Assembly: GCA_029260215.1 (NCBI GenBank)
Contig: JAJDDQ010000015.1
Span: 1 to 62,467 of the forward strand
DNA: 62,467 nt
Source of the DNA: Phycisphaerae bacterium
GTDB taxonomy: Bacteria > Planctomycetota > Phycisphaerae > UBA1845
Direction of reading: 5' to 3'
Of the stretch, positions 8,149 through 31,940 are shown piece after piece. The notes below the pieces were generated by a model. That model saw nothing but the letters and a program-made list of their open reading frames with translations. It had not been told where the DNA came from and did no database searches. How positions within the stretch are numbered: the stretch's first letter is position 1; each line of letters begins with the position of its first letter. The position numbers were made by a program, and so were the translations under genes.

Positions 8149-8150
8149 GG

Positions 8151-10488: not shown

Positions 10489-10552
10489 GACGACCTCCCG
10501 AGTGTCTGCTCGAACCACAGCCCGGCTGTGGCTTCTCTTTCGGGAAGACCGT

Positions 10553-12886: not shown

Positions 12887-12905
12887 AGTCAGGCTCTCAA
12901 GATGC

Positions 12906-15215
12906 TTACTGTCGCGTCGTAAACGTTACGGTTCGACCGGCGAAACCAAGAAGCTCAGTTTCATTGATGTTGTTCACGGCAACGTCCCATGCTGGATTGC
13001 TGTCGTGGTGAAAACGATTCGCGTATTCCTTGATCGCGTCAAGTTCGGCCAAATCCCGGCCGGGCAGAATCGGGCGACTATTCTCCGCCAGCTGCCGCGC
13101 CCGATTGATGAACGGACCGAGTAGAGTCCCAGGCGGGAAGTACTCGCTACACGCAACGCGCAGGTACGCTTCTAGAACCGGCCGAAGACTGATTGCCACT
13201 TGCCGTCCATCTCGATGAGTTGCTCCAACGAACCCCCGAAGCAGGGCGTGACGTCGATCGTACTCAGTGATAGCCGCATCATGCACTGCCCACTGTTCGA
13301 TGCTAGAGCCATCAGCCGCGCGAACAATCTCCAACGCCGCCGCGTTTTCTTGATCACAGTGTTCCCAGACCATGCAGAGTATTTGCTTCGAGTGGGACAA
13401 TAAGATTACCTGTTCGACTCCTGCCGCCAGGGCTCGAAGTTCTTGGGCGGTTGTTAGCGTCCTCCCATCATCGAGACTGGAGACAGGATCATCAATCACG
13501 ACGACGGTCGTGGCAAGGTCTGGTTCTTGATCCAAAGCGGCGAAGAAAAACGCCAGCGCCAGAGCGTTGCGGTCTCCGGCGCTCAGGGTGTTCTTAAAGG
13601 TCGGTGTCGGCTCATTTGCGTTGGCAGATGCGATCGGTACTTGGCAGTTGTTGATCTCAATCTGATAGACTGAGCTGGGCGTACCGCGCGGATTTGTTGC
13701 CTGGACCTCGACGATACGAAACCCCGCATAGAACTTGGCCAAGTACTCGTTAATCGTAGCCTGATAACGTGGAAAGATGGTGGCACGGTGCCGATCCAGG
13801 GCCTCGCGTGCCTCCACCTTACGTCGTTCAGCTTCCGCCTTACTAGTTTGTGCCGCAAGGTATTCGTCACATAGCGGGCGCACAGCATCGCTAAAACGTG
13901 ATTGGACTCGCTTGAGCCGCTCAAGGTCGCGCGATGCGACGGCGGCGTCGCCTTCGGCCGCCGCCTCCTTGGTCGTTGTGATTGCATTGTTGGATGCGAG
14001 GAGAGTGCGGCTGAGATCGCGACATTGTTGCCGGATGCCTTCGTATTGTTCGACCGCTGTCCTAGCGGCTTCATCGAAGTCGATTATCTCAAGAGGCGTG
14101 GCCTGCTTGGCGCGGGCCAGCCGGAGCAACTGGTCTCTAGCGTGCTGCCATGATTCGGCAATCTGCTGCGGATCCAAGTCGATTGCTTGGAGTTCATGAA
14201 ACTGGGCCCAGAAACGGTGTCGGTCGATTTGTTGCGTAAGGCGCTGCTGGAAGGCCGCCAACGAATCGCCGCCGAGAATGCGGTCGACATTGGACATTAT
14301 CTCAGTTATGGACCGATGATGATCAGCGTAGGCGTCACTGAAGTACGCGCGGTAATGACTTAGGATATCTGATTCACGCAGCGTTTGGGTGCAGAACGGA
14401 CACGGCTGCGTCGAGGGATCCCCGGTAGCAGATGCATACCGCATGCCTCTTTCGACCCAACTTTCCGCTCCGTCGCCGAGTTGTGCAAAATGGTCCTGAA
14501 CAGCCGTCGCCGCAGTCGTATCAAGTTGGGGAAGGTCCCGGGCAATTACTGCCTGCAACTCATCAACATCGATCGACGGTGGTTCGAGCGGTTGGAACGG
14601 TTCAGTAGTGGCAACGGCCTGCGATTGACGAAGTGCGGCCAAGCGTCGCTCGGCATCGGCGAGCGCTCCGGCCAGTCCTTCAACTGGGGACAACGCACAG
14701 AACTCATCGACGGAAAAGGTGCCTCGTACGTCCGTGGATATCGCCGTCGTGTTTTCGCGAACCACGCCTTGGAGTCTGGTTATTTCCGATGCGAGGTTCT
14801 CAACCTCTCTTGCGAGACTAACACCCTGTCGTCCAATGATAACTTGATGGAGGTTCTGACGGTGCTCAGCTGTGACATCGAGACCTGAGTGGACATTCTC
14901 GTGCACGAATATATCGTCGAAAACGCAAATCGCTGGATAGGTTCGGCTCCAGGTATCGTTCTCAAGAGTCGCTGGTTGTGGGTTACCGTCACAGTCAATG
15001 ACAACATGGGGTGCCTGCTCGGCTCCAAGACGGTGCCGCTCTTTGACCGGTACGCTACTGCCGCTCTGAAGAGAGCGTAGAATAGCAGAGAGTGTCGTCT
15101 TGCCTCGTCCGTTTTCGGCGTAGATCAGCGTCAGGCGCGCAAGCTCGGTTCCGGGAGTGCCGGCAACTGAGTCGAACGGCCCGACATTGCGTATTAGCCT
15201 TACTTGATTGAGCAA
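12906..15215 (-). CDS. RloC-like AAA_13 ATPase with zinc hook, candidate anticodon nuclease
   Basis: A 769-aa ABC/SMC-type ATPase. Walker A AENGRGKTT is at 33-41, a zinc hook CPFC at 272-275 between helical arms, ABC signature-like TLSAGDRNALALA and Walker B VVVIDDPVSSLDD after residue 550, then a switch LLSHSKQ. The C-terminus carries R-P-V-L-E (about 678-682) and RFHHD (about 734-738). Its R-x3-E and later His recall the catalytic residues of the PrrC/RloC tRNA-cleaving nucleases. PrrC and RloC genes often lie inside type I restriction operons, as here, 19 bases before hsdM. Start TTG at 15215 has CGGAG 7 bases upstream. It may be a related AAA_13 protein without nuclease activity. Confidence 0.7.
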   Translation of the reverse strand: MLNQVRLIRNVGPFDSVAGTPGTELARLTLIYAENGRGKTTLSAILRSLQSGSSVPVKERHRLGAEQAPHVVIDCDGNPQPATLENDTWSRTYPAICVFDDIFVHENVHSGLDVTAEHRQNLHQVIIGRQGVSLAREVENLASEITRLQGVVRENTTAISTDVRGTFSVDEFCALSPVEGLAGALADAERRLAALRQSQAVATTEPFQPLEPPSIDVDELQAVIARDLPQLDTTAATAVQDHFAQLGDGAESWVERGMRYASATGDPSTQPCPFCTQTLRESDILSHYRAYFSDAYADHHRSITEIMSNVDRILGGDSLAAFQQRLTQQIDRHRFWAQFHELQAIDLDPQQIAESWQHARDQLLRLARAKQATPLEIIDFDEAARTAVEQYEGIRQQCRDLSRTLLASNNAITTTKEAAAEGDAAVASRDLERLKRVQSRFSDAVRPLCDEYLAAQTSKAEAERRKVEAREALDRHRATIFPRYQATINEYLAKFYAGFRIVEVQATNPRGTPSSVYQIEINNCQVPIASANANEPTPTFKNTLSAGDRNALALAFFFAALDQEPDLATTVVVIDDPVSSLDDGRTLTTAQELRALAAGVEQVILLSHSKQILCMVWEHCDQENAAALEIVRAADGSSIEQWAVHDAAITEYDRRHALLRGFVGATHRDGRQVAISLRPVLEAYLRVACSEYFPPGTLLGPFINRARQLAENSRPILPGRDLAELDAIKEYANRFHHDSNPAWDVAVNNINETELLGFAGRTVTFTTRQ

Positions 15216-15230
15216 CGGACGGCTCCGTAA

Positions 15231-16214
15231 TCAGATGGAGATTCGCTCGACTTCATCGAGGGTTATCTCGTCTCCCGTTCGGTCGTATAGCTTTGTCGTT
15301 CGCGGCGATTCGTGCGCCGCGATAGCTTGGGCGTTCTCTATAGTTCCACCGGCTTCTAGGTAAGCCGTGATTCCAGTGGCTCTGAATGTATGGCAACAAA
15401 TGCACTCGGGCAATTCATTCGCTATTGCGCGACGCTTGACCATTCGCAAAGCATCGTCACGATTCATCCGCTTTCCGGTGAGTCGTCTTTGCTTGTCGAG
15501 CGTGCGAAACAGTGGCGTATTCTTGTCATCACCGATACCTGCAGCATGGACATACTCATGAACGTACTCGACCGCGCTGTGATGGGCAGGCACTTCGTGG
15601 AACTTTCCGCCTTTCTCGTGCAGGCGAATTGTCCAGCGGAAACCGATGTTGTAGAAGTCACCGACGTTCATGTTCATGACGGCTGAGACGCGCGCGAACG
15701 AATAGACCATCACGCCGATTATTGCTCGGTCGCGCAGCCCGACGATCCGCGATGTGTCGATGCTATCAAGCAGGTCTCGACACTGCTCAGCTGTGAGGAC
15801 CGGGCTCTTGCCCTTCTTGACGACGTGCCTGGGGCCACGAACGGAGCTGGCCGGGTTTACGGGAAGAATTTGGCCGGTCACCAGCCAGTCGAAAAGCATC
15901 CGGATCGCGGCAAGATGGAGCTTCACGGTTGGGGCCGATCTCACCACCTGAAGTCCTTCAACATACGTGGCGACGATAATCGGCTCGATTTGGTCCAGGT
16001 GCGTGATTCCACGGACGTCGCACCAGTCGAGGAAGCCCCGAACGGCCCGGGCGTACGCTTCGCGCGTATTGGGGTTTCGGATGGTGGCGGTGAAGAACTC
16101 GACGAACCGTCGAGCGGCATCAGGCCCGGCGTCCGCCACGATGCGAGGAACCACCCTCGTCAGCGATTTCGTCGCCGATGGCGGTTTTCCCAAAAGTGCG
16201 GTTTCCTCGTACAT
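15231..16214 (-). CDS. Tyrosine recombinase / integrase
   Basis: A 327-aa phage-type integrase. An N-terminal SAM-like DNA-binding domain (NPNTREAYARAVRGFLDWC, about 47-65) is followed by a catalytic domain with R175 in YSFARVSAV, a likely lysine at 201-204, H275 and R278 in CCHTFRATGIT, H301 in AAHESPRTTKLY and nucleophile Y310. The catalytic set is complete, so it should cut and join DNA. It is the first gene of the minus-strand defence operon, only 15 bases from the next start, which is unusual for an integrase and links defence-gene expression to mobility. No attachment site could be identified. Confidence 0.92.
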   Translation of the reverse strand: MYEETALLGKPPSATKSLTRVVPRIVADAGPDAARRFVEFFTATIRNPNTREAYARAVRGFLDWCDVRGITHLDQIEPIIVATYVEGLQVVRSAPTVKLHLAAIRMLFDWLVTGQILPVNPASSVRGPRHVVKKGKSPVLTAEQCRDLLDSIDTSRIVGLRDRAIIGVMVYSFARVSAVMNMNVGDFYNIGFRWTIRLHEKGGKFHEVPAHHSAVEYVHEYVHAAGIGDDKNTPLFRTLDKQRRLTGKRMNRDDALRMVKRRAIANELPECICCHTFRATGITAYLEAGGTIENAQAIAAHESPRTTKLYDRTGDEITLDEVERISI

Positions 16215-17991: not shown

Positions 17992-18815
17992 AGCGCAGCG
18001 CGGTGCAACGCGACCACATACTGCGGGATGCTCTCGGGGCGGGTCTTGCATTCCAGCATCGTTCTGGAGCGGAACAGTGGTTCCAGGATGGCGCATCGGA
18101 GATATCCGAAGAACTTGGTCACCTGATCTCGATTGGCGAGTATTACTTGGCGACGAAGTTTCTTGCGGACAAGGTGAGGCCTCGTCTTGACAACGAAGAG
18201 CAGGCCTTCGTCGCATCGTTGCAGATCATACAAGAAACAGCTGATGGGTCTTTCCTTGATCGGCTTGCGCAAGACTTGAGAACGTGGCAAACTGGAAGAG
18301 TGAAGCATCAAGAAACCAAGGCGCTAGACGCCCAGCTACAAGAGCACATCCAATTAGAGAAGGAAAACCTCCCGAGTTCACCTTCGCCAGCGGATGCCGC
18401 GATACACGCAAGAAAGCTTGCATCAACCATCCATTCGGTCGTAGTTTCTCACGATAAGCGGAGCGCCGCCGACATAGTTGCTGCGGAGAGAGCTGCTGCC
18501 GCGCTGAGCCGTGCCGCGCTGAAGGAGTTGAAAGTCGTCTTACAACCTCTCTATGGCAACCAAGAAATCCGCTCCTGGCGGACGCAAGACCGTCGCGATC
18601 TGGTTGATCACATAAACGACATTGCACGTCGGTGTGGCATGGTGGTCGCTGGGTCCACGACAGGTCCTTGGGGCGCCTTGGACCTTGAAAAGGGGGAGTA
18701 CTTTCGAATCAAGTACACTCACCCGGACACCGGTGCAACGACCAGCAAACACCTCGGGACTCCTCTGCCTCGCCTTCATTTCAGACGAAAACAGCAAATT
18801 CCCCCGACCGCTTGA
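17955..18815 (+). CDS. Hypothetical helical protein, partner of the metallopeptidase gene
   Basis: A 286-aa protein of unknown function, rich in Ala/Glu/Lys/Gln helices (for example the stretch around residues 105-210) and ending in a basic strand-rich tail around HPDTGATTSKHLGTPLPR. No catalytic motif is visible. Its ATG lies inside the end of the peptidase gene with a 37-base overlap, so the two are likely made together, for instance as protease and substrate, adaptor or inhibitor. Its stop codon overlaps the -35 box of the next operon's promoter. Confidence 0.6.
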   Translation: MLDSIQTLNKLLKRSAVQRDHILRDALGAGLAFQHRSGAEQWFQDGASEISEELGHLISIGEYYLATKFLADKVRPRLDNEEQAFVASLQIIQETADGSFLDRLAQDLRTWQTGRVKHQETKALDAQLQEHIQLEKENLPSSPSPADAAIHARKLASTIHSVVVSHDKRSAADIVAAERAAAALSRAALKELKVVLQPLYGNQEIRSWRTQDRRDLVDHINDIARRCGMVVAGSTTGPWGALDLEKGEYFRIKYTHPDTGATTSKHLGTPLPRLHFRRKQQIPPTA

Positions 18816-18839
18816 CATCGGGCGAAGTCGTGCTATACT
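18812..18839 (+). promoter_or_regulatory. Strong sigma-70-type promoter for the Hsp70/vWA/TraG-like operon
   Basis: TTGACA at 18812-18817 and TATACT at 18834-18839 are separated by 16 bases, close to consensus. Transcription would begin near 18846, about 200 bases before the first coding start. Confidence 0.65.
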
Positions 18840-19044
18840 CCTACTGACGCGGCCCTGCAATCCGCGAGGGCCGGTCGTTCGGCATGAGCCGCGACTATCT
18901 TCGGTGGTGCCGTTCTAGGCTGAAAACCCGATTCCAGGACGTGGCCGTTGCGGCGAGCGCGGATGGTCTGCGCTTGCCACGGCACTGGGCGGCAATCTGG
19001 GAGGCGGCGATGCACGCGGCGTACTTTCAGAAGGAGACTTCATC
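18840..19044 (+). other. Leader of the chaperone/coupling operon with a hairpin
   Basis: This is the untranslated leader after the promoter. CGGCCCT (18850-18856) pairs with AGGGCCG (18867-18873) around a 10-base loop right at the predicted transcript start. No T-run follows, so it may stabilise the 5' end or bind a regulator rather than terminate. No gene was recognised in the remainder. Confidence 0.4.
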
Positions 19045-19194
19045 ATGTCGTTTGCGATTCCAGACAAAATGAGAGGTGCGTTGGATGATCTGACCATTTC
19101 GCCGCCGTCCGAATGTGCCCACCAGGCCGGGCAACTCGCCCAATCCACACTCAGGCCGGCAATGCCAACGGCGCTTGAAGGGAGGCGAGTATGA
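19045..19194 (+). CDS. 49-residue protein opening the Hsp70/vWA/TraG-like operon
   Basis: A short gene with a clear AAGGAG ribosome site 8 bases before its ATG. The protein begins MSFAIPDKMRGALDDL, continues with Pro/Ala/Gln-rich sequence and ends EGRRV. Its stop overlaps the ATG of the GrpE-like gene (ATGA), a hallmark of a real coupled gene. There is no signal peptide or membrane segment. No family was recognised; it could be a small adaptor or a leader peptide whose translation controls the downstream genes. Confidence 0.6.
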   Translation: MSFAIPDKMRGALDDLTISPPSECAHQAGQLAQSTLRPAMPTALEGRRV

Positions 19195-20009
19195 ACGCGA
19201 ACGACCAGCCTCCGTTCATGGATGGTGCGGCGTCATCGGACAAACCTGGTGGCGAAGATGCTCGAACGCCCAAACCGACCACCAGAAACGGCGAGCCGTC
19301 GTGTGCAGACCTGCACGAGTCACCGTCCTCAAGTACGCCCACCGTTGAAAGCTGGCGCGAATGTACAGACGAGCACTACGTAGTCCGAAGGAATGGCCAG
19401 CAATTCTTCGGTTGGGTCAATCTAGTGGATGTACTGCGCTCTGTGGCCAACGAAGCCCAGGCGGGATACTCATCGGCAGCAATTACCATCATCGAGTACC
19501 ACCCGGGTCGCACACCTCCAAGTGAGGACTCGCTCCTAACGCAGTTCAGAAAGATCGAAGAGCAGCTCGGGGCCATAGGCGAACGGCAGAAACGCGTCAT
19601 TGAGCCGCTCGCCGAGCAGAACGCGTCGCTTCGTAATGACGAAATCGACAGCAGGTTTGTGCGTCCGTTGCTAGAAGCCGTGATTCAGACACTCGATCGG
19701 CTCGATGACGAGTTGATTGGTTGCTGTGAAATGGACGACGCACTCAGGAACGGCCGAGAGTCCGACCGAGAGGAGTACCTCCAGCTTCTACGGCGGTTCG
19801 GAGTGAGGCTCATTCGTGCGATTCGCGGTGATCCGTTCAACCCCAAGTACCACAAAGTGAGTTCACGTCGCATCTCAGATTCCCCTGCGAAGATCGGCCG
19901 CGTCCGCCATGCACGGCGACCAGGATACATCCGCGAGTGTGACGGTGCGGTAATCAGAGGAGCGTGGGTCGAGGTGTACGTTGAGGCGAACGGCGCGGCC
20001 CGTGAGTAA
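19191..20009 (+). CDS. GrpE-like nucleotide-exchange factor
   Basis: A 272-aa protein with a disordered Pro/Thr/Ser N-terminus of about 50 residues, a middle domain around EHYVVRRNGQQFFGWVN, a long helix (about 115-150, QFRKIEEQLGAIGERQKRV) and a four-helix-like segment. It ends in a strand-rich tail, DPFNPKYHKVSSRR ... GAVIRGAWVEVYV, that matches the GrpE beta-domain pattern. GrpE drives ADP release from Hsp70. The next gene encodes an Hsp70, which supports the call. The protein is longer than housekeeping GrpE (about 190 aa) and divergent, so it is probably dedicated to this operon. The start has GGGAGG a few bases upstream and overlaps the previous stop. Confidence 0.65.
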   Translation: MNANDQPPFMDGAASSDKPGGEDARTPKPTTRNGEPSCADLHESPSSSTPTVESWRECTDEHYVVRRNGQQFFGWVNLVDVLRSVANEAQAGYSSAAITIIEYHPGRTPPSEDSLLTQFRKIEEQLGAIGERQKRVIEPLAEQNASLRNDEIDSRFVRPLLEAVIQTLDRLDDELIGCCEMDDALRNGRESDREEYLQLLRRFGVRLIRAIRGDPFNPKYHKVSSRRISDSPAKIGRVRHARRPGYIRECDGAVIRGAWVEVYVEANGAARE

Positions 20010-20029
20010 CCGGAAGGAAAGGAATCGCT

Positions 20030-21544
20030 ATGCCTAATGGTGAGTGTGTCAATGGTCAGGGTCCTATTCTCGCGATTGACCTCGGAACTGACGGAATCAA
20101 GGCGGCCATTTGTGGCCCCTCCGGACTTGCTGAGACCATCCGAAGTGATCACGGCGCAAGAAGGACCAACAGCGCTTTGTGCTTTGCTGCGGACGGGAGC
20201 GTCGTACTCGGTGAGGAAGCGAGTGAACAGGCGCAAGTGTCCCCCGAAGATGTTGCGGTGGAATGGAAGATGGAGCTGGCGAACCAGGCCAAGCGCTTCA
20301 TCAGGAACACGATGAACGCGGAAGAAATCGCCACGTTGGCAATCAAAATAATCGTTGAACGAGCCGAGAAACAGACTGGCCAGAAGATCAGCCGCTTGGT
20401 CCTGACGATCCCGGCGAACTTCCCAGATCAGGGTAGGGCCGCAGCGATTCGAGCGGCCGAGGCCGGCGGATTCGAAGTTGTTCAGGTGATCACTGAGCCG
20501 GGAGCCGTAGGTTTGGCATATTGTGTCAAGAAGCAGGTGGAATGCATCATCTGTGTCGATGTCGGCGCTGGCACGACCGATGTCTCGGTGCTGGAGGTTG
20601 AGAACGGCATCGCCGCAGTGAAAGCAACGGGCGGCGTGGCAAGGCTTGGCGGGCGAGATTTTACTGCCGCGGTTGTTGATCTTCTCATCGAGAAGATGAG
20701 CGCGGATACCGGGAAAAGCATCACGCGAGAGTCATTCACGCCCGAGCAGGTGGCCGAACTGGAAGCGAAAGCTGAGAAAGCCAAGATTGCGCTTGGGATG
20801 CAGCCCGCCACGAAAGTCGCCCTTCGCGTAAACAACGACACAAAGCTCGTTGAGATCACGCAGGAGGAATTTGAGCGAGCAACCCAAGCGTTCACCAAGC
20901 AAATCTTGGCATGCGTCGATCAGGTTAAGACGGATGCCCAGAAGGAATGGGGCGACTTCGACATGCTGGCCGTGGCAGGCGGCGCTTGCGAAAGCCCCAG
21001 GGTCCAATTGACGATCGCCGATCACACGGGCCTCGTCGCCAAAGCCGAAATCGACCCGGCCATCGTCGTGTCCCATGGGGCAGCTCTTCACGCGCACAAC
21101 TTGCTTATTGCCGAGGGTGCAGGCAAGGTCATTCCGAATCGCCCCGTTCTCCAAGAAGCGACTGGCCACGACATTGGAGTTGCTGTCGAAGACGAAACGA
21201 AGGACGAACGTCCGCTCGCTTGCGATGTTGTCGTTCCGAAGAACAAGCCGGTTCCGGGTGAGTTTTCTACCGAATATCGTCTCTTGAGCGAGACTGCTAC
21301 CGAAGCGTTTATCGAGATCCTGCAAGGTCCGCAAGATGCACCGATCGACAAGTGCAGCAAGATCGGCGTCATTCACTTGCAGGGGCTCCCCCGCGAAACG
21401 CTGCGGACATACCGCATCGTTGTCATCTTCAAGTTCGACAACAACACGCTGTGCGAAGCAACCGCGCGCGACAAGATCAGCGGAATCTCCCAAACAGTGA
21501 GCGTGAAGCTCACCCACCAAAAGGATCAAGGAGAGACGAAATGA
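20030..21544 (+). CDS. Hsp70 family chaperone, short form without lid
   Basis: A 504-aa DnaK relative. The ATPase domain shows phosphate-1 DLGTDGIK (17-24), phosphate-2 DVGAGTTD (177-184) and the adenosine motif AVAGGACESPRV (about 314-325). Residues 390-504 keep a beta-rich substrate-binding part beginning ATGHDIGVAV. The helical lid of DnaK (about 100 residues) is missing, and no DnaJ gene is nearby. The preceding gene encodes a GrpE-like protein and the following vWA gene overlaps its stop (ATGA), so it is a dedicated chaperone of this operon rather than the housekeeping dnaK. Its role may be assembling or switching the vWA or coupling-ATPase proteins (inference). Confidence 0.88.
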   Translation: MPNGECVNGQGPILAIDLGTDGIKAAICGPSGLAETIRSDHGARRTNSALCFAADGSVVLGEEASEQAQVSPEDVAVEWKMELANQAKRFIRNTMNAEEIATLAIKIIVERAEKQTGQKISRLVLTIPANFPDQGRAAAIRAAEAGGFEVVQVITEPGAVGLAYCVKKQVECIICVDVGAGTTDVSVLEVENGIAAVKATGGVARLGGRDFTAAVVDLLIEKMSADTGKSITRESFTPEQVAELEAKAEKAKIALGMQPATKVALRVNNDTKLVEITQEEFERATQAFTKQILACVDQVKTDAQKEWGDFDMLAVAGGACESPRVQLTIADHTGLVAKAEIDPAIVVSHGAALHAHNLLIAEGAGKVIPNRPVLQEATGHDIGVAVEDETKDERPLACDVVVPKNKPVPGEFSTEYRLLSETATEAFIEILQGPQDAPIDKCSKIGVIHLQGLPRETLRTYRIVVIFKFDNNTLCEATARDKISGISQTVSVKLTHQKDQGETK

Positions 21545-22185
21545 TCAAACGCATCTTGTCATGCCTACCCGAGCGGTTCGGCAGACAGCTTCCATCAACG
21601 AACCACTTCTGCGATACGTCCGGCTGTGACAGTGTGCTGCTGCTCGACAGCAGTGGTTCAATGGGGCAGCCCATGGGAACCGGATCACGCCTAGACGCAG
21701 GCATGGCAGCCGCCATTGCTTTCGTTGATGAGCGAGCTAGTAATGAGGCAGCTCGGATTGCCGTCGTCGGCTTCCACGACATCGCACTTCCGGTTTGCCC
21801 ACTCACGCCCGCTACAAACAAGCGTACCCTCTACCGGGGCATTCGGTCACTCAAACCTAGCAATCGAACGAACATGACGGCAGGTCTTCTTGCAGCGGAA
21901 CAAGCACTCGCTTGTAGCGATGAGTACCGACGGAACCGAGAGATAGTGTTCCTCACCGACGGATACAACAAAAGTTGTTGTCCGCTCGTTGTCGCCGATC
22001 GTCTTAAACAGGCCGGGTGCCGAATCTTCACGGTCGGCATCGGTCCCGCGCCCGCGACGGTAGATGAGGCGCTGCTGACGAAGATCGCGTCCCGGGACAA
22101 CTCCGGACTTCCCTTGTACCGATTCGTCGACGATCGAATCCGGCTGACGCGGCACTTCAGGCGCGTCGCACGGATCGTGCGGTAG
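21541..22185 (+). CDS. von Willebrand factor A domain protein
   Basis: A 214-aa protein that is nearly all one vWA domain. The metal-ion site is complete: DSSGS at 36-40, a Thr in the NRTNMTAGLL loop, and the Asp of FLTDGYN. Such domains bind partner proteins through Mg2+. There is no signal peptide, so it should be cytoplasmic. ATG at 21541 has AAGGAG 7 bases upstream and overlaps the hsp70 stop (ATGA); a longer frame from 21352 would lie inside hsp70 and is rejected. It sits between an Hsp70 and a membrane ATPase and could be the adaptor that recruits one to the other. Confidence 0.88.
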   Translation: MIKRILSCLPERFGRQLPSTNHFCDTSGCDSVLLLDSSGSMGQPMGTGSRLDAGMAAAIAFVDERASNEAARIAVVGFHDIALPVCPLTPATNKRTLYRGIRSLKPSNRTNMTAGLLAAEQALACSDEYRRNREIVFLTDGYNKSCCPLVVADRLKQAGCRIFTVGIGPAPATVDEALLTKIASRDNSGLPLYRFVDDRIRLTRHFRRVARIVR

Positions 22186-22209
22186 GAAACCCAACCAAGG
22201 AGCGCCTTC

Positions 22210-24552
22210 GTGCCAGATTCCGAAGAAATGTTGTTTCCGTGTACCGTGTTGGCCAACACAAGGGACGCCGCCATTCGGAGCGTTCATGTGGAGGCGGCCG
22301 TGGCTGCGTTAGTGTTGAATGCCATACTGCTACCCCTCACCATCGCGACATTTGGCATTGGGACGATTGCCGCGTTGGCGCTATTGGTCGGCTACCTCTA
22401 CAGGGCATCTGCAGAGAACCGATTGATGGAATTCGATCGACGTAGGCAATGGCACGCGGGATTCGAGGCGCCGGCGGACGCAGTCGAACCGCTCGGACCA
22501 CCCAAGTTGGCAACAGCGCTCCTGCTGGCAACGGCAGTGCCGTTCATTGGCACCCTCATAGCAGGCTATATCCTGAAGCGACGCTTCCGGGAGCACTCGC
22601 GCGAAATCGATGTAGATTTTCGCGAGATTCTGCGCAGGCATAATGGAATCCTCTTTGTGTTTCTGGCGTACCCGGACAATCGCTTCCGCGCGACCGCTGG
22701 CACCGCCGCCATGTGGCTTCCCGGCGACTCGATGAGTTCACGCGAGGGTCACGTCATTGGATTGCTCCTACCGTTCTACGCAGCTGTCGTCGTGCCAGTC
22801 GTGGTTCTTATGCCGATCGCACCGATCCTGGCGGCTGTCGTCGGCGTGCTGGCCATCCCTTTGCCCAGGCTCACGCTTACGGCGCTTACGATGCATTCGC
22901 TTGCAAAACTCCATGGGGCACTTCGCCCCACGCTTCCTGCATCCGACACAGAATGGAGTGAAGCAGTTAGCCGCGTTGCCACCTCCAAATACCAAGCCAA
23001 CGGCGTGGCACTGGCACGACACTTCTTCCTTGGCTGGGTGATTCCAAGTTTCGCGGAAGCGTGGCATCCATTCCGGAAAATACTCAACCATGAGCTGCCT
23101 TGCCCCACGCCCGCACTCGTCCATGAAAGCGTGCTTGATGGACACCTTAGCTTCACCGGCCCCGCGCAGTCTGGCAAGACCAGCAACGGAGCAAGCGGGC
23201 TAATGACGCAGTTTATCAGGGGGCACATCCGTCCAGTCACAGATGACAACGGGACGCCGCGATATGACCGCAAAGGCGAAGCCATTTGGACGCGGTCAGA
23301 TCCCTCTTCGATCTTGGCCATCGACCTCAAAGGTGACTTGGCACTGTTTAATACAATGCGCGAGGAGTGCGTGCTCCGTGGCCAGACGTTCCGATTCTTT
23401 ACGGCTGAGCAAGGCAAGGCGAGCAGCTTCTTCAACCCAATCACGAATCTGCAAGCTGTATCACGTCCCCCGATCGAGTTTTGCGAAATCTCGCTCAACA
23501 TGCTTGACCTCTACCATGGCATGTTCTACGGCGGCGGGTACTACAGCGAGCAGTCTCGCAACCTCTTGCTAAAGACGCTTAAGTCGGCACGCCAGGCTCC
23601 CACGTCGTGGGAAGAACTTTACGAGTTGCTCACCGATACGCTCGATCGTCGGGAACACCGAGACGTCTTCGAGCTCTTGGGTCGGATTTTCGCCTTGGCG
23701 CAATATCCCGTCCTGGGGCCCGCACCGGCCGGTATCGACACGATCCACATGCCGACTGTGATCGAGAACAACGAATGCGTGTACATGTGGCTTCCGGCTT
23801 TGGAAAGCGCGATGAGCGTCGTGTCGATCGCCAAAATGGGTCTCTTCTGTTTCTTGGATGCGGCGCGCAAGTGGAACAACAGCGGCCGCGAAAGAAAACA
23901 TTCCTACCTCATGCTCGACGAAGGGCAGGTCATTTGTGGTTCGAATACGGAACGTGTGTGCCAGCAGGCCTCCGGGGCCAGGGTCCGGATGATCCTAAGC
24001 AACCAGTCGCTGGCAAACCTCGATACTCGCGACGCGCCCAACTTGAGCAAGACCATCTGGACGAACACTCGGGTCAAGCAGACCTTCGGATTGCTCGATT
24101 CTCGCGAGCGCCGGGATTGGATCGATCTGTCGGGTGAGGACATCGGCACGTTGCCAAATGGCGAGAATCAAGGATGCAGCACGCCCGGCCGCGCAGTTGT
24201 GCATCCACGCCTCAACCAGAATGCAATCAGCGAAGTGAACAACACAGCAGGTCAGTCGCTCCTGTACGTGAACGGGGACACGGGGCTGTCGCGATTCGAG
24301 TGCATCCCGCGCCAAGTGTGGTGCCCGTACCCGATGACCTATTCCGAGTACCTGCGACGCTCGCAGACGCCTTGGCCGACACAATCCGAGCCCCAGGTCC
24401 AGGACGGGAAAGTCGAAGCAACCGTAGTCAACACGCAGGCGCCAGAAGAGGTCCAGCAGCAGGCCGACAGCAAGTACACCGCGCTGGAGCAGCTCTTTCG
24501 GGACGTGGCCAGGCAATCGAACCGAGGAGGGTCGATTCGGCTGGGCGAATGA
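22210..24552 (+). CDS. VirD4/TraG/TraD-like membrane coupling ATPase
   Basis: A 780-aa protein. Four or more hydrophobic segments (about 30-65, 100-122 and 180-225) anchor it in the membrane. A RecA-like motor domain follows with Walker A GPAQSGKTS (317-325), ILAIDLKGDLALF, Walker B SYLMLDEGQ (about 569-577) and a MILSNQSL segment, as in type IV coupling proteins of the TraG/VirD4 group. The tail of about 60 residues is Gln/Glu-rich. Such ATPases pump DNA or proteins through a type IV channel. No relaxase or channel genes are seen nearby, so this one may be used in a mobilisable element or repurposed. GTG at 22210 has AAGGAG 7 bases upstream. Confidence 0.82.
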   Translation: MPDSEEMLFPCTVLANTRDAAIRSVHVEAAVAALVLNAILLPLTIATFGIGTIAALALLVGYLYRASAENRLMEFDRRRQWHAGFEAPADAVEPLGPPKLATALLLATAVPFIGTLIAGYILKRRFREHSREIDVDFREILRRHNGILFVFLAYPDNRFRATAGTAAMWLPGDSMSSREGHVIGLLLPFYAAVVVPVVVLMPIAPILAAVVGVLAIPLPRLTLTALTMHSLAKLHGALRPTLPASDTEWSEAVSRVATSKYQANGVALARHFFLGWVIPSFAEAWHPFRKILNHELPCPTPALVHESVLDGHLSFTGPAQSGKTSNGASGLMTQFIRGHIRPVTDDNGTPRYDRKGEAIWTRSDPSSILAIDLKGDLALFNTMREECVLRGQTFRFFTAEQGKASSFFNPITNLQAVSRPPIEFCEISLNMLDLYHGMFYGGGYYSEQSRNLLLKTLKSARQAPTSWEELYELLTDTLDRREHRDVFELLGRIFALAQYPVLGPAPAGIDTIHMPTVIENNECVYMWLPALESAMSVVSIAKMGLFCFLDAARKWNNSGRERKHSYLMLDEGQVICGSNTERVCQQASGARVRMILSNQSLANLDTRDAPNLSKTIWTNTRVKQTFGLLDSRERRDWIDLSGEDIGTLPNGENQGCSTPGRAVVHPRLNQNAISEVNNTAGQSLLYVNGDTGLSRFECIPRQVWCPYPMTYSEYLRRSQTPWPTQSEPQVQDGKVEATVVNTQAPEEVQQQADSKYTALEQLFRDVARQSNRGGSIRLGE

Positions 24553-24722
24553 TTTTCATCTGACGCAGCAGCCTCTGCGATCTCGCCGCCGTCCGAGACT
24601 AAGCGTTGACGGCCCAGGTGACATGATGCTTCAGGATACTCCATTCAACGGTTTTGATTCCAACAGCGGATATCGCCGCTGCTGGATTGAGAACGTTATG
24701 CATAACTACAATGGAGGAGTTC

Positions 24723-24890
24723 ATGAAGCTATTCACTCTGAAACGGCGAAAGTCGGACCCGACGACAATCGTCGTATACCTGGAATTGGGGCACGCTCTT
24801 CGCGCAGTTGCCGAACATGTCATTTGGTATGGTTCGTGGGTGCTCCTCGGATTTGCGTTGCACCACGCCCTTATCGCCTTGACAGGTTGA
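24723..24890 (+). CDS. Small single-pass membrane protein
   Basis: A 55-residue protein, basic at the start (MKLFTLKRRKSD), with a hydrophobic C-terminal half (VIWYGSWVLLGFALHHALIAL) that should form one membrane helix. GGAGGAG stands 3 bases before the ATG at 24723, and a longer frame from 24654 lacks support. It is last in the operon after the TraG-like ATPase gene and just before a strong terminator, so it may be a membrane partner of that ATPase. A small hairpin, CAGCGG(N6)CCGCTG, lies in the 170-base gap before it. Confidence 0.55.
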   Translation: MKLFTLKRRKSDPTTIVVYLELGHALRAVAEHVIWYGSWVLLGFALHHALIALTG

Positions 24891-24921
24891 GAGCGCGGAC
24901 TGCAGGTCGTCAGTTACGGCC

Positions 24922-24954
24922 CTGCCCTCGGTTTCCGACCGAGGGCAGTCTTTC
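24922..24954 (+). terminator. Rho-independent terminator
   Basis: CTGCCCTCGGT (24922-24932) pairs perfectly with ACCGAGGGCAG (24938-24948) around TTCCG, an 11-base-pair stem followed by TCTTTC. It closes the operon that starts at 18812. Confidence 0.85.
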
Positions 24955-25377
24955 ATCCAGTAAGCCACGGCACAGCCAGCCATCCAGTCGCGAGGCCGAT
25001 CGCCGCCACAAGCAGGCGCGCGTGAAGGCGATACGCCTCCGATCTCCAGGCAACCGTGAGCAGGTAGAGAAAATGCTTCATGGCTCGAAAATAGCACGGG
25101 GCATGGGCCGGTGGCAACGGAAGAATGGCTTTTTTCGTCGGACGGCTGCAACGACGCAAAACCATGCAGCCAAAACGATCACGCTTGCGTGCCTGCAACA
25201 TCACCTTGTCGGTTGAAGTTGCGGCGCATGCATGCGGCGCTTTGCACTTCAACGGAACGGACCATTCAGCGTGAATGGGAGAACAGACAAGAACGGTTGA
25301 TGCAAGTGCAAAGCGTTGATCACCGGCGTTGGTCTTCTCAGACGTGAGGAGGCCAATGCCTTATTTGCGGAGATTGG
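24955..25377. other. Intergenic region, possible 42-aa minus-strand membrane peptide
   Basis: Most of this stretch shows nothing recognisable. On the minus strand, 25081 down to 24953 reads as a 42-residue peptide starting MKHFLYLLTVAWR, with a hydrophobic C-terminal helix, converging on the terminator at 24922. It has no good ribosome site, so it is only a possibility. A GAGGAGG at about 25348 lies before a 23-codon frame that runs into the next gene and may help its translation. Confidence 0.25.
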
Positions 25378-26025
25378 ATGTTCGTGGAAACGAAAATCAA
25401 ACATCATGTCGTTCTGACCGGCCGTGATCGGGCGATGCTGAGTGCGCTCTCCAACTGCGTGAAGGTATTCAGCGTCGAACAGATCACGGAGACCTGGTGG
25501 CACGTTGGTGGGAACCCGAACCCACGGCTCAAACGGCTCGAAGGCGCCGGATGGATCGAACGCTCTTGGGCGATCGCTTGCGTTTCGCATCGTTCGCCCG
25601 AACCGCTCGCAGCCTGGAGTCCAGGCCACCCCGAACCCGAATGGTCGGCGATCATCGCTTCCTCTTGCGCCCGTTGGAGGACCGACGCCCGAGCGGTGAG
25701 TCTCGTTTCGGTGTCCGAAACCGCTGCGGTGCATTTTGGCGGAGTCGCCCGATACCCGAGATTGAGCGAAGTCTCCCACGATCTCTTTCTTGCGCTGGTG
25801 TTCTTACACATTCGCTCCATCCGCCCCCGCGACGCAAGAGTATGGGTCGGCGAAGGTGCCCTTGCTGCCCAGTCCGGCTGCGCTTCTGCGGTGCCGGACG
25901 CCCTTCTCAGGCGGCCCGGGCGACCGGTTGCGATCGAGGTCGTTGGTGAGTCCTACCGGCCCAGCAAGCTGAGATCTCTTCACGATTACTGCGCCGAACA
26001 GGGATGGGGGTACGAGCTGTGGTAG
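25378..26025 (+). CDS. Replication-relaxation-like winged-helix protein
   Basis: A 215-aa protein. The N-terminus (LTGRDRAMLSALSNCVKVFSVEQITE, then RLKRLEGAGWIER) is a winged helix of the kind found in replication-relaxation proteins of plasmids and integrative elements. The C-terminus (VPDALLRRPG, AIEVVGES, then a Lys-containing helix) looks like the degenerate nuclease fold of that family. It probably binds element DNA during replication or mobilisation. The ATG at 25378 has GGAG 6-7 bases upstream. Its end overlaps the next gene, a second protein of similar design. Confidence 0.55.
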   Translation: MFVETKIKHHVVLTGRDRAMLSALSNCVKVFSVEQITETWWHVGGNPNPRLKRLEGAGWIERSWAIACVSHRSPEPLAAWSPGHPEPEWSAIIASSCARWRTDARAVSLVSVSETAAVHFGGVARYPRLSEVSHDLFLALVFLHIRSIRPRDARVWVGEGALAAQSGCASAVPDALLRRPGRPVAIEVVGESYRPSKLRSLHDYCAEQGWGYELW

Positions 26026-26756
26026 TCAGTGAAGTGAGTCTCAACATCCTTCAGGCTGTGGGCCTATATAGAATCGCCACCCGTGCGACGATCGGCACGC
26101 TGATTCCGGGCGAACCGGACAAGCGCCTGGGGAGTCTCGTTCGGGACGGGTTTCTGCGCACGATCAAGGGCTTTCCGAGCAACCGCACGCTCTATCAGCT
26201 CACGAAGAAAGGGGCAGCCACTGCCGGCGTATCTGTCGCTCGCTCTCGCAGGATGGGCGGGCAGTCGTTGCAGAAGAACCTGGGCGTCCTCCTGTTCTGC
26301 CATATTCCAGGCGTTGAGCGGCACCGAATCGAGGCTACTCATTTGTCCGCCGTCCTGGGCGACAAGCTGCAGGATCGCGCCTTCTGCCTTTGCCGCGTCA
26401 AGGACCGGACGATTGCGTTCGACTGCTATGTGCCGGGTCCGCACACACCGGTGCCCACGGTACACCGAAGAATCGGAATTCTCCTGAAGGCGACCCGGTC
26501 ATCACCCGCGTTGTCGGAGGCGGTTCGAGACCAGCGTTTCGGTTTCGCCGTCATTACGCATACCGCTCAGCGCCGTAAGGCAATCATGGATGCGGTGCGT
26601 ACCAAGCGGTCCGATGAACCGATGCCGCTCATCAAGCGCGTGAGGATCTGGGTAGAGGCCGTTGACGAGCTGGGCGTGTTTTCGGGCACTGCCCAACCTG
26701 ACCTTGGACATGTGTCCAGGGGTGCCCAACAAACGCGGTTACATGAAGCTGGATAA
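26004..26756 (+). CDS. Second replication-relaxation-like protein
   Basis: A protein of about 250 aa whose first 80 residues form a winged helix (VSLNILQAVGLYRIATRATI, then KRLGSLVRDGFLRTIKG, and LYQLTKKGAATAGV). The rest is mixed alpha/beta with no clear catalytic motif and an Arg/Lys-rich late region. Together with the overlapping upstream gene it resembles the DNA-binding replication-relaxation proteins of mobile elements. The start is uncertain: ATG 26004 lies inside the previous gene and GTG 26019 overlaps its stop. About 170 bases follow without a recognisable gene. Confidence 0.5.
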   Translation: MGVRAVVVSEVSLNILQAVGLYRIATRATIGTLIPGEPDKRLGSLVRDGFLRTIKGFPSNRTLYQLTKKGAATAGVSVARSRRMGGQSLQKNLGVLLFCHIPGVERHRIEATHLSAVLGDKLQDRAFCLCRVKDRTIAFDCYVPGPHTPVPTVHRRIGILLKATRSSPALSEAVRDQRFGFAVITHTAQRRKAIMDAVRTKRSDEPMPLIKRVRIWVEAVDELGVFSGTAQPDLGHVSRGAQQTRLHEAG

Positions 26757-26929: not shown

Positions 26930-27319
26930 ATGATCGACATCACTTGTGAGCAACTTGTCTCGATTCGCGACATCCCTCGCCATCTCCCGCGACGGCCGAG
27001 TGGGAAGCGCGTCCATATCAGCGCCTGCTACCGGTGGCTCTCGCGTGGGGTCAGTGGCGTCAAACTGGAGGCCATACGGATCGGTGGCACGACCTACACG
27101 TCGGTCGAAGCGCTGCAGCGATTTGCTGAGCGGTTGAGTTCGTCGACGCCGCGCCCGCTCATTGAGCCGGCACCGAGCCTGAGCCGCCAGAAGATGATCG
27201 ATCGGGCCGCACGTGAGCTTGAAAAATCACTGAACCCATCTCGCTCTGGGCCAAACGGCACCAGCCGGCGTCAGTCGGAGTCAGCGAGAGCAGTCAATCC
27301 TCAAGGAGAGAATTCATGA
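26930..27319 (+). CDS. DUF1580 domain protein
   Basis: A 129-aa protein with the Planctomycete DUF1580 pattern: RDIPRHLPRRPSGKRVHISA, YRWLSRGVSGVKLEAIRIGG, then TYTSVEALQRFAERL. The fold is a helix-turn-helix like that of excisionases, so DNA binding is expected, perhaps to control element excision or transcription. The C-terminal 50 residues are basic and Ser/Arg-rich. The stop overlaps the next ATG (ATGA), tying it to the small protein downstream. Confidence 0.8.
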   Translation: MIDITCEQLVSIRDIPRHLPRRPSGKRVHISACYRWLSRGVSGVKLEAIRIGGTTYTSVEALQRFAERLSSSTPRPLIEPAPSLSRQKMIDRAARELEKSLNPSRSGPNGTSRRQSESARAVNPQGENS

Positions 27320-28053: not shown

Positions 28054-28510
28054 ATGCAGCCTAACTTGCAAGTGCATTTCTCATCGGCATCGGCCGAATG
28101 GGCAACCCCCGACGATCTCTTTGCCGAACTCGACACCATCTTCCACTTCGATCTCGACGCGTGCGCCTCGCCGGAAAATGCGAAATGTGTGCGGTACTTC
28201 ACGAAGGACGACAATGCCCTCGGAAAACACTGGACGGGCACGGTTTTGGATGAACCCACCGTATGGGCGAGAATTCAACGCATTCATGGGCAAGGCGTAC
28301 GAAGAGTCGTTCCGTGGTTCCACCGTGGTGTGCCTGGTGCCAAGTAGGCCAGACACCGCATGGTGGCATAAGTACGCGAGACGTGGCCAAGTGGTCTCTC
28401 TACGTGGCCGGCTAGAGTTCGGTGGTGCTCGCCATTCGGCCCCGTTCTCTTCGGCAATCGTGATCCCCTGGAGCGGCCGACTCGGACAGGCAACGAGACC
28501 TGGAGCATGA
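28054..28510 (+). pseudogene. Phage-type DNA N6-adenine methyltransferase, frameshifted
   Basis: The first frame begins MQPNLQVHFSSASAEWATPD and continues with DLDACASPENAKCVRYF, the hallmark of phage-type DNA N6-adenine methyltransferases. It leaves frame just before the catalytic motif. In the +1 frame the protein resumes as FWMNPPYGREF, then VVCLVPSRPDTAWWHKYA and LRGRLEFGGARHSAPFSSA, all family-typical. Removing one T from the TTTT run at 28244-28247 restores a single frame of about 151 codons. So this is either a recent inactivating mutation, a read error in a homopolymer, or a programmed shift. As it stands no intact enzyme is made. Confidence 0.8.
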
Positions 28511-30489: not shown

Positions 30490-30896
30490 ACTTGCTGGAG
30501 GACTGAGCGTAGAGACCGGCGGGACTAGGTCGGAGCGACCAGCGGCGGGCGTGACAGCTTTGCTGGCCGCGACCGTTGCCGAGCGTAGACCGGAAGCGAA
30601 GCGGGGCCCGCCGGGCTCGAAGCGGGATAGCACGATGAACATGCCGTACAGATGGCTAGAGATTCGGATGCCAATGCCGTCGTGTGCATCGGGTTGGAGC
30701 TGCATCCGGCTGTCTTTGGTGTGGTTTGCGTTGCATACGGTGGGTTCGGACAAGATGCGGACGTTGCCCCCGACGGGGCGGAGGGACCGACCTGGGCGGG
30801 GGATGCGGAGAATGGGTGCTGAGGACTGGACAGGGTCAGAGAGTTCACTAAAATACGACTGTTGAACACGTAGTCAACTTGCCGAGTATAGTGAAT
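30490..30896. other. Intergenic region, no gene recognised
   Basis: About 400 G+C-rich bases lie between the divergent ArdC-like gene and the AbiEi-like gene. No frame with a plausible start or recognisable product was found on either strand. The region presumably holds the promoters of both flanking genes, but no clear -35/-10 pair was seen. Confidence 0.4.
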
Positions 30897-31940
30897 ATGG
30901 TCGCGAAGGAAGACATCCTGGATCGCGTGCCCGGATTGCTGGAGGAGTTGGTACGGCTGCCGGCACGGCGCGTGAAGCGCAGAGCCGATGCCGATCTGGT
31001 CCTGCGGGTTGGATCGCACGTTTTCGTGATCGAAGCCAAGTCGAGTTCGCGAGCAGAGTCCATCGCTCAGGCCGCTGATAGCGCTCGGTCGGCTGCGGCG
31101 GCCGTGAGCGGCGAGGCCATCGCCCTGGTCGTGGTGCCTTTCATGGGTGAACTTGGCGGACGACTCTGCCAGGATGAGGGCGTCAGCTATGTGGACCTCT
31201 CCGGCAACGCGCGGATCGAGGCACCCGGTCTGCGTGTGCATGTCGCCGGGCAGCCGAACCAATTCGTGCGTCGTGGCAGACCTTCATCGGTGTTCGCGCC
31301 GAAGAGCGCCCGCGTCTCGCGTCTCCTGCTGCTCGATCCGCAACGGTGGTGGCGGCAAGCCGACTTGGCCGAGAACGCGAATCTCGGCGCCGGATATGTG
31401 AGCCGAATCTGCAAGCGACTTGAAGATGATCGCCTCATCGAGCGGGATGATGACCGGGCCGTGCGCCCCCGGGATCCCAGCCTGCTCCTGGATGCGTGGC
31501 AAAGCCAGTATGATTTCCGGCGACACGAGATTCGCGAAGGCCACGTCTCGGCGCGTTCGGGGCAGGAACTCGTTCAGCGGGTTGTCGATGCGTGCGATGA
31601 AGTCGGGTGCTCGTACGCCCTGACCGGATTAGCCGCCGCGTGGCTGCTCGCGCCCTTCGCCGGCTACCGGCTCGTCGCCGTTTACTTGAAGAAGGCGCCG
31701 AGCGAGAAGCTGCTCTCGAAGCTGAAGTGGCACGAAGAGAATCGCGGCGCGAATCTCTGGCTCGTCCGGCCGAACGACAAAGGTGTGCTACACGGCGCCG
31801 AGTCGGTGCAGAGCATGTCGTGCGTCAGCGCGGTGCAAACGTATCTCGATCTGCAAGGCATGCCGGAAAGAGCTGATGAAGCTGCGGAGCAGTTGCGAAA
31901 GGAGCGTCTGCGGTGGCAGAAAACCAAGGGCCGCGCGTAG
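30897..31940 (+). CDS. AbiEi-type antitoxin with nuclease-like N-terminus
   Basis: A protein of about 347 aa. Residues 28-52 contain ADLVL...HVFVIEAKSS, with D33 and E47-A-K49, the pattern of a PD-(D/E)XK fold. GVSYVDLSGNARI follows, then a winged helix (LENANLGAGYVSRICKRLEDDRLIERD, about 157-183). The C-terminal domain (SYALTGLAAAWLLAPFAGYRL, RGANLWLVRPND) matches AbiEi-family antitoxins of type IV toxin-antitoxin systems. The antitoxin usually represses its own operon through the winged helix. ATG 30897 is chosen; TTG 30879 and GTG 30891 are alternatives, none with a good ribosome site. It overlaps the toxin-like gene by 28 bases. Confidence 0.7.
   Translation: MVAKEDILDRVPGLLEELVRLPARRVKRRADADLVLRVGSHVFVIEAKSSSRAESIAQAADSARSAAAAVSGEAIALVVVPFMGELGGRLCQDEGVSYVDLSGNARIEAPGLRVHVAGQPNQFVRRGRPSSVFAPKSARVSRLLLLDPQRWWRQADLAENANLGAGYVSRICKRLEDDRLIERDDDRAVRPRDPSLLLDAWQSQYDFRRHEIREGHVSARSGQELVQRVVDACDEVGCSYALTGLAAAWLLAPFAGYRLVAVYLKKAPSEKLLSKLKWHEENRGANLWLVRPNDKGVLHGAESVQSMSCVSAVQTYLDLQGMPERADEAAEQLRKERLRWQKTKGRA

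Follow-up and report, generated by a model that had tools for sequence, protein, structure and literature searches.

The question raised by this locus is why a GrpE-Hsp70 chaperone pair should be encoded together with a membrane ATPase of the TraG/VirD4 type. The stretch of DNA analyzed here (the window; 62,467 nucleotides, contig JAJDDQ010000015.1 of assembly GCA_029260215.1, numbered C7 in this 4.97-Mb draft genome of a Phycisphaerae bacterium, phylum Planctomycetota) carries on its plus strand, in this order, genes for GrpE, a lid-less Hsp70, a von Willebrand factor A (vWA) protein, a TraG/VirD4-like coupling ATPase and a single-helix membrane protein, which together form one operon. A preliminary description of this DNA, made from the letters alone, knew of no named system with this exact set of genes, and the open-access literature searched yielded none; a pairing of such a chaperone trio with DNA pumps was likewise not found there. 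We propose that the operon belongs to the machinery for DNA processing and transfer of a planctomycete element that is integrative and probably mobilizable, and that GrpE, Hsp70 and vWA are its dedicated chaperone unit, a reading to which we assign a probability of roughly one half. The mobile setting of the relatives and the presence of a relaxase-like partner rest on tests reported below, whereas the action of the trio is something that we infer.

The three chaperone assignments of the preliminary description were borne out. The GrpE-like nucleotide exchange factor (19191..20009, plus strand), which has an extra N-terminal part, matches PF01025 over residues 117-262 (E 2.5e-9; 37.5 bits, cut-off 25.8). 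The Hsp70 (20030..21544, plus strand) comprises a nucleotide-binding and a beta substrate-binding domain, and its match to PF00012 (E 5e-59) ends at profile position 504 of 599, so the alpha-helical lid is missing. The vWA protein (21541..22185, plus strand) matches PF00092 (E 3e-16), and its alignment displays a motif DxSxS...T...D, which we take to be similar to a metal ion-dependent adhesion site. Whether the Hsp70 always lacks its lid had been posed as a check, and this holds in 21/21 loci with the trio that were read, at lengths of 492-524 aa. Judged by its sequence, the trio Hsp70 is a lid-less subfamily of the DnaK superfamily and not DnaK itself; the equivalents of DnaK D8, K70, E171, D194 and T199 (in what we take to be the DnaK numbering) are invariant in all 16 aligned rows, as is characteristic of nucleotide binding in this superfamily. 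A J-domain query returned nothing in the 21 trio loci (E up to 0.1, open reading frames (ORFs) of at least 60 aa) and matched only in L163 and L166, both without vWA (loci are numbered with L, genomes with G); a true J-domain partner of the trio is thus not supported.

The TraG/VirD4-like membrane ATPase (22210..24552, plus strand) was assigned from its alignment, from homologues within the order, and from the motifs GPAQSGKTS (Walker A) and LMLDE (Walker B) read in the sequence. The corresponding claim of the preliminary description stands in part: the cut-offs of three coupling-protein profiles (PF10412, PF02534 and PF12696) are passed by L034, which belongs to the same TraG cluster but is more distantly related, whereas the window protein stays below that of PF12696 (17.9 bits, cut-off 22). 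It is probably a coupling ATPase of the kind represented by MobB of CloDF13.

Relaxases had been reported as absent from this neighborhood. Two genes just past the operon correct this statement: wH1 (25378..26025, plus strand), a winged helix followed by a Replic_Relax/MOBC-like domain with E, PD and E, and wH2 (26004..26756, plus strand), a second Replic_Relax-like protein. Both match profiles of canonical PF13814 proteins (E 2e-11 to 5e-11 for wH1, 9e-12 to 9e-11 for wH2). In a profile-profile test (hhalign) of 30 wH1 and 29 wH2 sequences against canonical Replic_Relax proteins of planctomycetes and of phage G, a set used in three versions, wH1 reached 97.2-97.3% over 155-173 columns and wH2 97.0-97.4% over 204-205 columns, whereas none of six control profiles, which included a helix-turn-helix protein, exceeded 1.6%. 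Both proteins thus display profile kinship with the MOBC/Replic_Relax type, a winged helix joined to a PD-(D/E)XK-like domain, and because of this match a relaxase-like partner is present beside the operon. Pfam scans of the single wH1 and wH2 sequences of the window gave nothing relevant. In the alignment of 22 wH1 sequences the pattern W-x-x-E, PD-A, E is kept, with P replaced in L095; inspection of wH2 revealed no catalytic acidic-residue pattern of this kind. A structural model of wH2 (AlphaFold2, mean predicted local confidence (pLDDT) 70, five sequences) provides a line of evidence independent of the profile test, in that its best viral match is gp146 of phage G, itself a PF13814 member (90 bits). 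Against the PDB, residues 1-72 of this model match MarR-type winged helices, and no Replic_Relax structure is among the PDB matches listed, which carries no weight against the assignment. The parts of the literature bearing on this family list PF13814 as a MobC/MOBC relaxase family (PMC5357655), assign a restriction-endonuclease fold to MOBC relaxases and an N-terminal winged helix to TraX (PMC12857230), and describe Replic_Relax members as required in plasmid replication and relaxation (PMC3756968). From their sequences, wH1 may be a relaxase of the MOBC type (restriction-endonuclease fold) or an origin nuclease, and wH2 its non-catalytic partner.

The divergent gap upstream of wH1 contains, among further inverted repeats, a hairpin of the form GGCTGC-loop-GCAGCC (25144..25171, plus strand). 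Its loop, AACGACG(C/T)(G/A)AAA, and its paired arms are kept in all six loci of the close TraG clade (Hsp70 is seen in four of these; the other two contigs end before it), with one compensatory change in the stem (T-A versus C-G), while the remaining intergenic sequence diverges. Neither the other 24 loci nor L126 have the hairpin in this form ahead of wH1. It may be a nick site, and as such a candidate origin of transfer (oriT), or an operator.

How the chaperones relate to this module became apparent from 32 TraG-family planctomycete loci, in which TraG is present by selection and which were scanned in all six frames; the set includes some near-duplicates (e.g. L028/L050 and L032/L033), and several loci are clipped by contig ends. 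wH1 is found in 30/32 and wH2 likewise in 30/32, with a partial match in L094. Hsp70 and GrpE occur in only four, vWA in five, a coiled-coil membrane protein (C3) in 18, and ParA at more than 50 bits in 12, with one more, cut off, in L083. Based on these counts, TraG-wH1-wH2, a combination that recurs in 30/32, represents the core and the trio is one among alternative attachments; GrpE-Hsp70-vWA is an optional cassette on the TraG-wH1-wH2 module (4/32 loci). Where it is present, its arrangement is stable, as the gene-order check proposed in the preliminary description confirmed: GrpE-Hsp70-vWA-TraG-small membrane protein-wH1-wH2 is shared by four genomes of two families (the window, L028, L029 and L030). 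L126 likewise combines the trio with wH1 and wH2, but its TraG is very divergent (36 bits). A degenerate J-like membrane protein (C5) lies just ahead of C3 in eight loci (L041, L086-L089, L091, L097, L098), none with Hsp70, so that a chaperone-like trait occurs in Hsp70-less elements as well; PF00226 stayed below cut-off in the two of these eight proteins that were scanned (E 0.004 and 0.011). Neither C3 nor the J-like protein was seen in the four Hsp70-bearing TraG loci. A search of genome contigs with the window TraG returned four loci, from two Phycisphaerae metagenome-assembled genomes (MAGs), one Planctomycetaceae MAG and one MAG named Nitrospira, which may be misbinned, its contig having the same layout and gene lengths as G061. 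Among 72,556 plasmids no match to TraG, wH1 or K3 (the ATPase of a second kind of element, see below) was obtained, nor any to TraG or wH1 in viral contigs.

The relatives of the operon reside in mobile DNA. In the window a tyrosine integrase gene (15231..16214, minus strand; PF00589, E 1e-17), possibly marking an element boundary, lies about 3 kb upstream of the operon, and integrases 57-58% identical to it flank the G061 and G089 operons on the left. Downstream of the module, tRNA-Gly(CCC) with an adjacent PF00589 integrase is present in all three relatives with enough sequence (G061, G039 and G089). The single-contig genome G061 combines an integrase with direct repeats at the insertion site, as expected for an integrative element: exact 42-nt tRNA-Gly repeats at 1136593-1136634 and 1215603-1215644 bound a 79-kb element around the operon, and a second left copy of the tRNA part lies at 1134990. 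ParA is also encoded inside this element, and among eight of its proteins that were scanned are two RND pumps, a CusB-like fusion protein and a strawberry-notch-type helicase, with two others lacking a match. ParA and a Rep-like helix-turn-helix protein are present in several of these elements. PF03432 relaxases gave no match in G061, G039 and G089; in the genome of the window both PF03432 (below threshold) and PF19044 (above cut-off) match on contig C3.

The same trio, in the same order, is found in a second kind of integrative element, together with an FtsK/HerA-like ATPase (K3) and a small nuclease-like protein (K8). A hidden Markov model (HMM) of four Hsp70s, searched over 114 genomes of the order, gave 17 matches at 306-921 bits, most of them adjoined by GrpE HMM matches; lower scores merge with DnaK-like proteins (in the overlap zone, G022 scores 278 bits without the trio and G091 272 bits with it). 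In a search across the phylum, scored on three candidates per genome, the cut-off also takes in DnaK-like proteins (301/392 genomes), and of the six best foreign matches the first three have the trio and the next three lack vWA. Left out of the trio count are L127, an Hsp70-type match without a GrpE or vWA profile match, and L163, L164, L165 and L166, which have GrpE and no vWA. In the resulting 21 loci a GrpE-like gene lies directly upstream of Hsp70 without exception, albeit with weak profile scores in L124, L125, L128, L161 and L162 (Pfam GrpE is below cut-off in L124 and not detected in L126), and vWA follows Hsp70 in 20, the remaining locus, L121, ending with its contig. A DNA-pump gene, TraG or K3, is near the trio in 18/21, counting L126 on its 36-bit TraG match; it is not seen in L115, L128 (a contig of 3.4 kb) and L162, the last of which encodes an additional vWA protein bearing a zinc ribbon. 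The co-occurrence that the preliminary description asked about therefore holds for vWA and not for TraG: Hsp70 is present in only 4/32 TraG loci, 13/21 Hsp70 loci carry another ATPase, and the idea that Hsp70 is always accompanied by TraG was rejected. wH1 occurs in 5/21.

K3 is a HerA/FtsK-like ATPase with a winged-helix-like tail (PF01935 at 1.2e-6 in L124, sub-threshold or none in four others scanned). K8 is present in 11/21 loci, and in L124 and L125 the ATPase ends, by eye, in a K8-like C-terminal extension. The motif of K8 suggests a PD-(D/E)XK-like protein, with no such Pfam match. An integrase of one family (K4) follows the trio on the same strand in nine second-kind loci (at least 600 bits) and weakly in L161. 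Integrase ORFs overlap tRNA-Thr in L124 and L125; in L161 and L162 they are found less than 100 bp from tRNA-Asp and tRNA-Ser, respectively.

In the Hsp70 tree most trio proteins form a group of their own (18 rows, support 88/93), with L124, L125 and L128 falling outside. The TraG-type trio (5 rows, 87/86) is nested in a group of 10 rows (99/99) whose other members are second-kind loci, and this nesting suggests K3-type elements as the source from which TraG-type elements acquired the cassette, a reading which stays tentative because the branches of the window and L126 are long and L124, L125 and L128 lie outside. One genome, G010, was observed to hold three copies of a K3-K8-GrpE-Hsp70 module (L120, L121 and L122). 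Between these copies the ratio of nonsynonymous to synonymous substitution rates (dN/dS) is 0.04-0.05 for Hsp70, 0.20-0.21 for K3, 0.13-0.16 for K8, 0.20 for vWA (one pair) and 0.22-0.43 for GrpE; the five module genes are under purifying selection (0.04-0.43). In L029 and L030 the backbone from TraG onward is mostly 93-100% identical, with dips to 86%, whereas divergence is far greater, with high dS, in GrpE, over the first half of Hsp70 and in the central part of vWA. Since dN/dS is 0.15-0.20 for Hsp70 and vWA at this high dS (GrpE is saturated in dS), recombination rather than positive selection is indicated.

As regards the layout of the operon in the window, most signals named in the preliminary description were recovered. 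The promoter-like site TTGACA-16-TATACT (18812..18839, plus strand) agrees with the consensus at 11 of 12 positions and has TG ahead of its second hexamer; the stretch contains four such sites, versus 2.3 +/- 1.4 in shuffled sequence. ATGA overlaps join a 49-aa ORF to GrpE (19191-19194) and Hsp70 to vWA (21541-21544), and the spacing is 20 nt between GrpE and Hsp70 and 24 nt between vWA and TraG. A terminator-like hairpin with a stem of 12 pairs (24922..24948, no strand assigned) lies between two converging small genes. One of these encodes the single-helix membrane protein, for which the likelier start is later than first described, at 24723 (24723..24890, plus strand; 55 aa), preceded by GGAGGAG; counterparts of 50-54 aa are conserved 3' of TraG in L028, L029 and L030. 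The other encodes a second small membrane protein of about 42 aa (24953..25081, minus strand), with similar one-helix minus-strand proteins of 40-42 aa in L027, L028, L029 and L030. The 49-aa ORF (19045..19194, plus strand) has a good ribosome-binding-like site and had been counted as an operon member; no counterpart upstream of grpE was found in L028, L029 and L030, so it was rejected as a component and is a doubtful gene. Beyond wH2, a DUF1580 protein (26930..27319, plus strand; PF07618) belongs to the same backbone and is retained in L027-L030. Further along are a Dam-like methylase ORF (28054-28510) that is out of frame relative to an intact relative in L027 (a pseudogene or an assembly error), an ArdC-like anti-restriction protein (PF08401; 29580-30443, minus strand) and an AbiEi-like protein (30879-31940). 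On the other side, positions 5206-15215, which adjoin the integrase on its left, are occupied by type I restriction-modification genes together with an AAA_13/PDC-S06-like protein.

Among known mobile elements, two pair a coupling protein with a MOBC relaxase, according to the portions of the literature devoted to them: the plasmid CloDF13 (PMC7431656) and streptococcal integrative and mobilizable elements (IMEs) of class 8 (PMC5357655). CloDF13 (MobB and MobC, MOBC1) resembles our module in having an element-encoded membrane VirD4-type coupling protein beside a protein of the MOBC/Replic_Relax superfamily, with no channel found; it differs in that here two Replic_Relax-like proteins stand in tandem, a GrpE-Hsp70-vWA unit is added, the element is integrated and the sequences are very remote. 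Class 8 IMEs (VirD4 with PF13814/MobC) share the integrative lifestyle, the VirD4 coupling protein and the PF13814 relaxase, but use a serine integrase where a tyrosine integrase is found here, and they have neither the chaperone trio nor a planctomycete host.

Based on this dataset, we hypothesize that the client of the trio would be the complex of pump, relaxase and DNA at the membrane, which the trio would load, remodel or dismantle. A lid-less Hsp70 would allow fast binding and release of clients and would be reset by GrpE; in place of a J-protein, the metal-binding vWA protein might act as adaptor. Host DnaK and GrpE act in a similar manner on plasmid and phage initiators. More generally, and with still more caution, the trio can be viewed as an undescribed chaperone device of mobile DNA which plugs into TraG/VirD4 and FtsK/HerA pumps with nuclease partners and whose ATP-driven remodeling of the pump-nuclease-DNA complex would permit excision, nicking or transfer. 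DNA translocation gated by a chaperone in this way we regard as possible rather than probable.

Several observations weigh against a mobilizable element with its own chaperone unit. The window contains no convincing pair of attachment (att) repeats, and a search for a second tRNA copy found none in the sequence retrieved from G039 and G089, which is shorter than that of G061, or in that from the second-kind loci. No channel gene was seen, and PF19044, the one VirB4-type profile tried, was not found in G061, G039 and G089, so that transfer would need a helper. For wH1 itself, the PF13814 matches in G039, G089 and G061 are sub-threshold, a level at which 7/14 control genomes respond, and the AlphaFold2 model is poor (pLDDT 44). 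K8 was considered as a MOBC relative and rejected, with no profile kinship (0.2-0.5%). As for the chaperones, L115 and L162 carry the trio with neither TraG nor K3 seen. Of the 30 wH1 loci, 26 are without Hsp70 (two of them, L027 and L050, stop short of the place where it would lie), and the module can thus do without the trio. In the five TraG-type Hsp70s at least one of the threonines aligned to DnaK T11/T12 is missing, and their ATPase may therefore be altered. Lastly, a defensive role is the main rival reading, because close analogues of the parts list occur in defence systems and because of a run of genes on a Rhodococcus plasmid.

In such a role the ATPase and nuclease would attack foreign DNA, Hsp70-GrpE-vWA would serve as a threshold or assembly switch, and the integrative elements would be only carriers; we consider this somewhat unlikely. 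Conflict systems, as far as the relevant sections of PMC7159879 describe them, join vWA with NTPase chaperones, and some GAP1-N2 neighborhoods include HSP70 and GrpE, a subset having a second, shortened HSP70; no GAP1 GTPase was recognized among the genes scanned here, and the fixed order of vWA and pump, the integrase and the relaxase-like genes are further differences. CoCoNuT type IV restriction systems likewise co-locate Hsp70-like proteins (CnuD), VWA genes, FtsK/HerA ATPases or extensions and nuclease-like factors (PMC11090510, in the sections concerned), but here no McrB-type GTPase was recognized among the genes scanned, GrpE is present and the backbone is that of a mobile element. MoxR-vWA ternary systems also join vWA to an ATP-driven chaperone, with a MoxR AAA+ ATPase in the place that Hsp70/GrpE takes here. 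The run on the Rhodococcus plasmid NZ_CP070617 (L166, 1576-7564) comprises Hsp70 (510 aa, its match stopping short of the lid), a TPR protein with a weak J-domain match, GrpE and an FtsK/SpoIIIE ATPase; two relatives of this FtsK on further plasmids stand with TerD or with VWA, CARF and kinase genes, which leans towards conflict systems, although no Hsp70 or GrpE was seen there. In the same direction point weak mad8/HerA profile matches to the ATPases, the type I restriction set with the PDC-S06-like protein left of the window integrase, and the far higher variability of GrpE and of parts of Hsp70 and vWA than of the backbone between L029 and L030. That variability was attributed above to recombination, however, and PADLOC gave no strong match to the trio members scanned (window, L119 and L028) or to the pumps, the best being PDC-M61B at 1.8e-5 (window Hsp70) and mad8 at 7e-4 (window TraG) and 1.5e-9 (L124 ATPase). 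Moreover, the TraG-type partners are relaxase-like, and because the same integrase family follows in nine second-kind loci, the trio resembles backbone and not swapped cargo.

DnaK and GrpE activate the initiators of P1, F and lambda. By analogy, Hsp70 and GrpE might serve replication or maintenance, activating an element initiator (wH1/wH2 or a 447-aa Rep-like protein) after excision, and both the ParA and Rep-like helix-turn-helix proteins of several of these elements and the plasmid replication role given for Replic_Relax members in part of PMC3756968 would fit. This appears unlikely, since the operon of the trio also encodes the pump and a membrane protein, wH1/wH2 lie past the terminator-like hairpin, and in the second kind of element the trio occurs with a pump and without wH1/wH2. 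It is also conceivable that the trio is ordinary stress cargo, a spare chaperone set that benefits the host and is unrelated to the adjacent pump; Hsp70-type matches are indeed frequent on plasmids (265/72,556 records), but the fixed order with vWA, the pump nearby in most loci of two element kinds and the separate tree group formed by most trio Hsp70s make this very improbable. Of the three roles guessed at in the preliminary description, mobilization of the island is best supported, given the adjacent MOBC-like module and the integrases of relatives at tRNA genes, one of them in clear att repeats; nothing was found for DNA uptake, and defence remains the rival just discussed.

DNA exchange in planctomycetes is hardly treated in the open-access literature searched. 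The present data provide a recognizable mobilization-type module, a coupling ATPase with tandem MOBC-like proteins, in planctomycete elements, as well as a chaperone cassette that became associated with DNA pumps of two kinds. Should the pump be the target of the trio, mobile DNA would bring its own Hsp70 machine instead of using host DnaK, and vWA would represent a new kind of Hsp70 adaptor. This would also offer a testable link between the transfer modules of mobile elements and the conflict systems that are built from the same parts.

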